This document shows, piece after piece, positions 32,236 through 33,412 of a DNA stretch of 33,425 nt. Position 1 is the stretch's first letter. Each line of letters begins with the position of its first letter. The notes below the pieces were generated by a model. It was not told where the DNA came from and did not search any database. It saw only the letters and a program-made list of their open reading frames with translations. The DNA is taken from NCBI GenBank assembly GCA_016932045.1, contig JAFGDO010000014.1:1-33425 (forward strand), written 5' to 3'. A program made the translations under genes and the position numbers. Source of the DNA: Candidatus Dojkabacteria bacterium. Its GTDB lineage: Bacteria; Patescibacteriota; Dojkabacteria; JAHIVN01.

Positions 32236-32997
32236 TTACACAGGTCTGAGAGTACCTCCGAATACTTGCCAAGCAAGTGCAGATTTTGCCAGCAAACTAA
32301 GAAGAATATACACTCTCTCACCCCAGAGATAATCTTTCCATTTACCAAACTTTTTATATTGAAGAAACATATTAACCGCAAAAGTATTGAAGAATAGAAA
32401 GATTGAAAAGAATATCCAGTAAACAAAATCCGGTGGTTTTGCTTCTCCCTCACCCGAACCAAAAAGATACAAGGCAATTACAACCCAGGGGATAGCACCT
32501 GCAAAACAACCGTAAATAAACGAAGTCCAGTTTGTCATTTTGGTCGACTGATTATGAAGCTCCATAACTAACCCAAAAAAGATCATACAGGCATTGATGC
32601 TAAACATAAGAATTAAACTCCCGATATCATATACACCTACCAGCATAGCAATTAGTACAATCATAAGTGATGCACTCAGAGAATATTCATACCATCTTGC
32701 ATAGTTTATTCCTCTCTTTAAATTCTTCACATACCATTCATATACTAAAGGAAGTGTTAAAGTGAAATGGGAAACAGCAGATAAAACAAGAAACAACGAT
32801 AATAAAGGAGCAACCCTTATATTGAGAATTGTTTCCCTTTCCGGTTGAAGTATCATTACATCGCTACTAAACTTTAAAAAGTTTGTATCAAGCGGTAAGG
32901 TAAAATCATTGCTAACAAGAAGCATCACAATAGCTTGCACGAGATGAAACACCCCCATTACTAGATTGAAAATTCTCAAGTTTCTATATTTGTCCAT
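32236..32997 (-). CDS. Heliorhodopsin
   Basis: Seven hydrophobic helices; TM3 RWYEYSLSASLMIVLIAMLVGVYDI with Glu104 counter-ion position; SHFTLT His77; TM7 GERVYILLSLLAKSALAWQVFGGTL with Lys238 and Ser234 four residues before it, as in heliorhodopsin 48C12 (Glu107, His80, Ser237, Lys241). Confidence 0.96.
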   Translation of the reverse strand: MDKYRNLRIFNLVMGVFHLVQAIVMLLVSNDFTLPLDTNFLKFSSDVMILQPERETILNIRVAPLLSLFLVLSAVSHFTLTLPLVYEWYVKNLKRGINYARWYEYSLSASLMIVLIAMLVGVYDIGSLILMFSINACMIFFGLVMELHNQSTKMTNWTSFIYGCFAGAIPWVVIALYLFGSGEGEAKPPDFVYWIFFSIFLFFNTFAVNMFLQYKKFGKWKDYLWGERVYILLSLLAKSALAWQVFGGTLRPV

Positions 32998-33001
32998 AAA
33001 T

Positions 33002-33412
33002 TTAAATTTTTAATAATTTAGCAATAAAATAACTAAGACAAGTTACAGTTCCGCTTAAGATCATTCCCCAAAGTACATCAAGCACAACGACTTCTATAGG
33101 CCAATCCTTTAGAGTTGCTAAGTTAGTCAAGTCATAAGTCATATAAGTAAAGAATCCAAATAAAACTCCAAATAAAATCGCTATAGATAAAGAATTCTTT
33201 TCAATTGCAGGTTGTACCGCAAAAATCAAAATCCCAAGTACATAGAAAATATATAAGAATAACACAGCTAACCAATTAATTCTTGCTTGAAGAAAGTCAC
33301 TTAGGTGTTTTGCATAAAAGCCCTTTGAAATAATTCCAAGCCAAACAAGATCAATAGAAATATGTATAGCTAATGTTGAAAGATATAAAAGAAAATACCG
33401 AAGATATTTCAT
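33002..33412 (-). CDS. DUF2177 family membrane protein
   Basis: SIDLVWLGIISKGFY...VLFLYIFYVLGILIFAVQPAIEKNSL...GVLFGFFTYMTYDLTNLATLKDWPIEVVVLDVLWG. Confidence 0.9.
   Translation of the reverse strand: MKYLRYFLLYLSTLAIHISIDLVWLGIISKGFYAKHLSDFLQARINWLAVLFLYIFYVLGILIFAVQPAIEKNSLSIAILFGVLFGFFTYMTYDLTNLATLKDWPIEVVVLDVLWGMILSGTVTCLSYFIAKLLKI

Follow-up and report, generated by a model that had tools for sequence, protein, structure and literature searches.

The locus described here raises the question of heliorhodopsin (HeR) function for a CPR bacterium. Is the open reading frame lying near the end of the window, by which we mean the whole contig analysed (33,425 bp), a genuine HeR? From where would it obtain its retinal, and does the DUF2177 gene that adjoins it indicate what it does? 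The features discussed below are located in Table 1.

Table 1. Location of the features at the window locus and of related features in other genomes and plasmids
Feature	Source	Position	Strand	Description
Heliorhodopsin (HeR) gene	Window genome (G000)	32236..32997	(-)	253 aa, ATG start; PF18761, NF038020, residue map, AlphaFold model
DUF2177 gene	Window genome (G000)	33002..33412	(-)	136 aa, four-helix membrane protein; PF09945 E=1.6e-41
HeR - DUF2177 - pyrimidine dimer DNA glycosylase - small protein - formamidopyrimidine-DNA glycosylase	G002	L054:5099-8018		
HeR remnant	G001	L053:6737-6850		35 aa
Broken HeR gene	G014	L058:7777-8587		Frameshift
Broken HeR gene	G032	L061:7895-8137		In-frame TAG
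Carotenoid cluster	G041 (Dojkabacteria)	L081:6321-11789		
Carotenoid cluster	G019 (Dojkabacteria)	L083:4590-9326		
HeR-family protein	G232 (same phylum)	L149:4733-5788	(+)	~350 aa, N-terminal extension
HeR gene	Lactococcus petauri plasmid, NZ_CP141705.1	L150:5592-6368		
HeR gene	Chloroflexota plasmid, CP069395.1	L151:4995-5759		

The open reading frame encodes a canonical heliorhodopsin

An initial annotation, made from the sequence alone, had assigned this open reading frame to the heliorhodopsins. The assignment was confirmed by the conserved residues, by the predicted fold and by two profiles that match over the whole length of the protein, namely Pfam PF18761 (E=1.6e-101, 339 bits versus a cut-off of 26.7) and the NCBIfam HeR equivalog NF038020 (342 bits versus a cut-off of 100). 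The gene is present in a single copy in the window genome (1.46 Mb, 94.5% complete), and the same profile search gave no HeR match among the 14 control genomes. A search with the type-1 microbial rhodopsin profile had also been proposed at that stage; PF01036 has no match genome-wide, and the motif found in TM7 is SxxxK, not DxxxK.

The protein aligns end to end with solved heliorhodopsins, TaHeR (6is6, E=4e-83) and 48C12 (6su3, E=3e-60). We checked 15 residues of the retinal pocket and proton network of 48C12, and all 15 are kept in the window HeR (window=48C12): N11=N16, H18=H23, Q21=Q26, S73=S76, H77=H80, Y89=Y92, R101=R104, E104=E107, Y105=Y108, S108=S111, E146=E149, E227=E230, S234=S237, K238=K241 and W243=W246. 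In 48C12 these residues form the Schiff-base site and the hydrogen-bond network (PMC9726877). The Schiff-base lysine K238 is found in TM7 within the motif S234-x-x-x-K238, the counterion glutamate E104 is found in TM3, and the histidine pair of the proton network, H77 and H18, is present. Lys238, Ser234, Glu104 and His77, which had been singled out by the initial annotation, align with K241, S237, E107 and H80 of 48C12.

The AlphaFold model of the protein (pLDDT 88.9, pTM 0.84) contains seven helices and, in the A-B loop between helices 1 and 2, a two-strand sheet (residues 33-44 and 49-61). It superposes on TaHeR 6is6 with a TM of 0.91 and on 48C12 with a TM of 0.89, the values for type-1 rhodopsins being far lower. 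The likeness to 48C12 (6su3, 6uh3) that had been noticed by eye holds for the network residues and for the fold, with the nuance that TaHeR is closer (53% versus 43% identity) and that 48C12 lies on a distant branch of the tree. TaHeR (PDB 6is6, 7u55) shares the Schiff-base and counterion residues, but it comes from a Thermoplasmatales archaeon, unlike the window HeR, and we know of no DUF2177 partner for it. We conclude that the open reading frame encodes a genuine, canonical heliorhodopsin (type-3 rhodopsin) of full length, whose retinal site and proton network are intact. By analogy with the family, it would have an inverted topology, with the N-terminus inside, and a long photocycle.

All the network residues that we checked match those of 48C12, for which no pump activity is known to us, and among proteins of solved structure TaHeR is the nearest. 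Both points argue against a transporter of ions (protons) driven or gated by light, an alternative to a sensor that we consider improbable. The intact proton network would suit such a transporter, and V2HeR3 from an Emiliania huxleyi virus does move protons (PMC9448325), whereas studies of prokaryotic HeRs report regulatory partners (PMC9529153, PMC9769723 and PMC11109279).

The gene is native to a Dojkabacteria lineage

The initial annotation had suggested a CPR host. This is supported by the relatives of the window genome, HGW-Dojkabacteria-1 (G022) and Ca. Dojkabacteria STE_192 (G002), the latter belonging to the same family, and by the HeR phylogeny that had likewise been proposed. In a tree of 61 sequences, the window HeR is sister to the HeR of G002 (99/94; 70% identity) inside a seven-member Dojkabacteria clade (99/91); because of this placement, we consider the gene as native to the lineage and not as a contaminant. 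The HeR of HGW-Dojkabacteria-1, from the same host class, falls in the same clade and is 68% identical to the window HeR, but its genome is without DUF2177 and has instead a DUF1295 gene at 2.2 kb from HeR. The remaining Dojkabacteria HeRs are scattered over several other positions of the tree, and Dojkabacteria seem to have acquired HeR more than once.

Matches above the cut-off were found in 58 of 381 CPR genomes; in Dojkabacteria, a HeR occurs in 20 of the 56 genomes. Heliorhodopsins from CPR have been published, including seven in Dojkabacteria (PMC9166423); the window HeR is an ordinary, well-conserved protein of a family already known in this host class.

The retinal is probably scavenged

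In the window genome we found no match for phytoene synthase (SQS_PSY), for which 7 of the 14 control genomes match, nor for an RPE65-type dioxygenase, for which two control genomes match. The BCD (blh) model gave zero matches in the window genome and zero in all the controls. Since neither phytoene synthase nor RPE65 was found genome-wide, scavenging is the likeliest source of retinal, which would probably be taken from neighbouring or host cells; the scavenged chromophore proposed by the initial annotation fits these searches, in which control genomes do match. External retinal is rapidly bound by heliorhodopsin, and a like reasoning was followed for Saccharibacteria (PMC9296517).

A genome in which no retinal or carotenoid route is detected could also harbour a dying gene, whose product would mostly lack retinal and on which selection would be relaxed. 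Broken copies do occur in the class, with a frameshift in G014, an in-frame stop in G032 and a 35-aa remnant in G001, which suggests repeated loss of HeR in Dojkabacteria. The window copy is nevertheless full length, keeps 15 of 15 network residues and remains 70% identical to the HeR of G002, and the quick binding of external retinal by heliorhodopsins (PMC9296517) also speaks against such a decay, which we judge very unlikely.

Two Dojkabacteria genomes, G041 and G019, carry carotenoid clusters with genes for a desaturase-like oxidoreductase, phytoene synthase, lycopene cyclase and a DUF1295-alpha/beta-hydrolase fusion; G041 has a HeR too. No recognised carotenoid cleavage enzyme was found in HeR-bearing relatives with carotenoid genes, such as G041. 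A 271-aa protein encoded beside the DUF1295 fusion of G041 resembled TspO by eye, and was dropped as Pfam gives no match.

A DUF2177 gene directly precedes the heliorhodopsin gene

The DUF2177 gene lies directly upstream of HeR, on the same strand and with a gap of 4 bp, and probably forms an earlier gene of one operon with it. It was absent from the initial annotation, though it is the most informative feature of the locus. The AlphaFold model of DUF2177 shows the four helices with a pLDDT of 95.9, and a fold search with this model against the PDB returned nothing below E=2. Because the contig stops 13 bp beyond DUF2177, the start of the operon and its promoter are outside our view; predictions of intrinsic terminators and promoters near the pair are at chance level.

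HeR with DUF2177 is one of the ten putative helR operon groups listed in a published report (PMC11109279), in which the 'DUF2177-containing' group appears with no function given to DUF2177 and, in the section consulted, with CPR not named. To this group we add a link to ChrR clusters and to a gene slot shared with DUF1295.

The pairing recurs in a distant heliorhodopsin clade

The order DUF2177-HeR on the same strand was found in three genomes, i.e. the window genome, G002 and G199. The first two represent two genera of one family, and G199 belongs to another class of the phylum. Since the HeR of G199 sits in a distant clade, the pairing has arisen at least twice. With an assumed probability of 0.001 per genome, adjacency in 3 of the 14 CPR genomes having both genes gives P ~4e-7, and P 9e-5 when the window genome and G002 are counted once (two events). 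AU tests on a shared origin of the DUF2177 copies of the window genome, G002 and G199 gave P values of 0.21 and 0.095, the value of 0.21 being that for the window genome and G002. In G001, which belongs to the genus of G002, only the ~35 last HeR codons are left, beside a gene for an fpg-type DNA glycosylase that also flanks the HeR-DUF2177 block in G002; DUF2177 was not found in the G001 genome, as if the two genes had been lost together.

The pairing concerns only 3 of ~60 CPR HeR loci, where the neighbours are mostly unrelated. A conserved HeR neighbourhood across CPR was rejected, the recurrent neighbours in these loci being DUF2177 (three loci) and a few pairs such as HAD and NUDIX. At the genome level, co-occurrence of HeR and DUF2177 is not significant (11 versus 8.1 expected among 381 genomes, P=0.16; P=0.14 for the class), so neither gene needs the other. 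These observations would suit a stand-alone HeR photosensor acting on an unlinked partner, the adjacency with DUF2177 having arisen incidentally as genes were reshuffled within a compact genome. We see this as possible but not probable, because the same order and strand recur with a distant HeR in another class, above chance placement, and because DUF2177 is linked to light stress independently of HeR.

The stretch of G002 listed in Table 1 has the appearance of an island against light and oxidative damage. As a general partner of HeR, the pyrimidine-dimer glycosylase was rejected, since it adjoins HeR only in G002 and G004 and is absent from the window genome. Photolyase was also rejected as a partner of the window HeR: none was found in the window genome, with seven control genomes matching.

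The slot downstream of DUF2177 in CPR

We examined 43 CPR DUF2177 loci and defined the slot as the gene directly downstream of DUF2177, at less than 300 bp and on the same strand. The slot contains DUF1295 in 22 loci, HeR in the three genomes mentioned above, TspO in one locus and the pyrimidine-dimer glycosylase in another one. TspO is encoded directly upstream of DUF2177 in 5 of the 43 loci, and six TspO proteins were confirmed by Pfam. In a DUF2177 tree, the window copy groups (88/86) with the CPR copies of G391 and G350, and in both of these genomes the slot is occupied by DUF1295. In G151, by contrast, a HeR is itself preceded by DUF1295, at a distance of 31 bp.

We tentatively suggest, with more doubt than confidence, that an operon against photo-oxidative stress, (TspO)-DUF2177-DUF1295, is widespread in CPR, that HeR repeatedly took the position of DUF1295 in it, and that DUF2177 would thereby have become a directly light-gated membrane protector. 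If true, this would give at once a concrete function to a HeR group and to DUF2177.

DUF2177 is associated with light and singlet-oxygen stress elsewhere

On rhizobial plasmids, DUF2177 is located at 5 kb or less from the gene of a ChrR anti-sigma factor in 9 of the 10 annotated loci examined, usually in the company of a sigma factor, cyclopropane-fatty-acyl synthase-like proteins, DUF1365, an FAD oxidoreductase and DUF1295. Singlet oxygen triggers the ChrR regulon, whose ufa genes produce furan fatty acids in Rhodobacter (PMC7380195). In Chlamydomonas, the induction of DUF2177, DUF1295, DUF1365 and CFA genes by singlet oxygen needs SAK1 (PMC4067076). In a Listeria record, a deoxyribodipyrimidine photolyase gene precedes DUF2177 and DUF1295 follows one gene later. 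Caulobacter vibrioides and Lactococcus lactis also have both DUF2177 and DUF1295. DUF2177 thus tracks singlet-oxygen defence independently in alphaproteobacteria, in Listeria, by its photolyase neighbour, and in Chlamydomonas, and our likeliest guess is that it protects or remodels membrane lipids.

DUF2177 is common to the window locus and to the sigma-E/ChrR cluster of alphaproteobacteria (UfaM/UfaD/UfaO, PMC7380195), and the CPR relatives further share DUF1295 and TspO with it. Unlike this cluster, the window locus shows no gene for ChrR, CFA or DUF1365; by phmmer, the rhizobial ChrR, CFA, DUF1365, FAD-oxidase and sigma proteins have no match in the 7.4 kb around HeR, the contig ending 13 bp past DUF2177. 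Conversely, the rhizobial ChrR clusters examined are without HeR.

Clustering was also assessed for six light-linked families in Dojkabacteria, which form 16 pairs within 10 kb versus 1.07 expected. HeR lies within 10 kb of the other five families in six cases versus 0.56 expected (P 3e-5), and in two cases versus 0.33 expected (P=0.04) when they are narrowed to DUF1295, photolyase and phytoene synthase, these P values being optimistic because two families were picked after having been sighted near HeR and because the genomes, being related, do not count as independent.

A possible light input to a membrane stress operon

From the HeR sequence, the 4-bp arrangement, the recurrent pairing and the stress context of DUF2177, which are observed, we infer the operon link and the role in light stress. 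We give about an even chance to the explanation that the window HeR is a light sensor using scavenged retinal, and that it was captured by a membrane operon with DUF2177 that serves against photo-oxidative stress. In this mechanism, apo-HeR would pick up retinal from neighbouring or host cells, and light would isomerise the bound retinal. By homology with 48C12, the Schiff-base proton would travel via E104 to H77 and H18, and a slow conformational change would then be sensed by a partner on the membrane or cytoplasmic side. The partner that is modulated would most likely be the co-encoded DUF2177 membrane protein, or the process that DUF2177 serves. The pair would be a light-responsive version of a singlet-oxygen stress module, represented elsewhere by DUF2177 and DUF1295, sometimes with TspO, in many CPR relatives and by the sigma-E/ChrR cluster with its lipid-modifying enzymes in alphaproteobacteria.

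HeRs were reported to regulate a glutamine synthetase (PMC9529153), a photolyase (PMC9769723) and an ABC transporter (PMC11109279), each encoded by a neighbouring gene, so that this type of mechanism has precedents. The diversity of these published partners would also suit the stand-alone photosensor. For a HeR coupled to DUF2177, the pairing provides a specific and cheap-to-test lead on light-stress protection. It is also a lead on DUF2177, a conserved membrane protein for which no structural relative was found in the PDB, and on light use and light tolerance in CPR cells showing no retinal or carotenoid route. What is added here is DUF2177 as a candidate photo-oxidative-stress protein, with HeR as its possible light input.

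Other members of the heliorhodopsin family

In the HeR-family protein of G232, the Schiff-base lysine is replaced by V (K241 of 48C12) and the counterion by G (E107), so that covalent retinal binding would not be expected from its sequence. HeR genes were also found on plasmids: that of Lactococcus petauri is a mobilizable plasmid of 10.5 kb, with an IS6 element near the HeR gene, and the second one comes from Chloroflexota. Such plasmid-borne HeRs may offer a route for horizontal spread.
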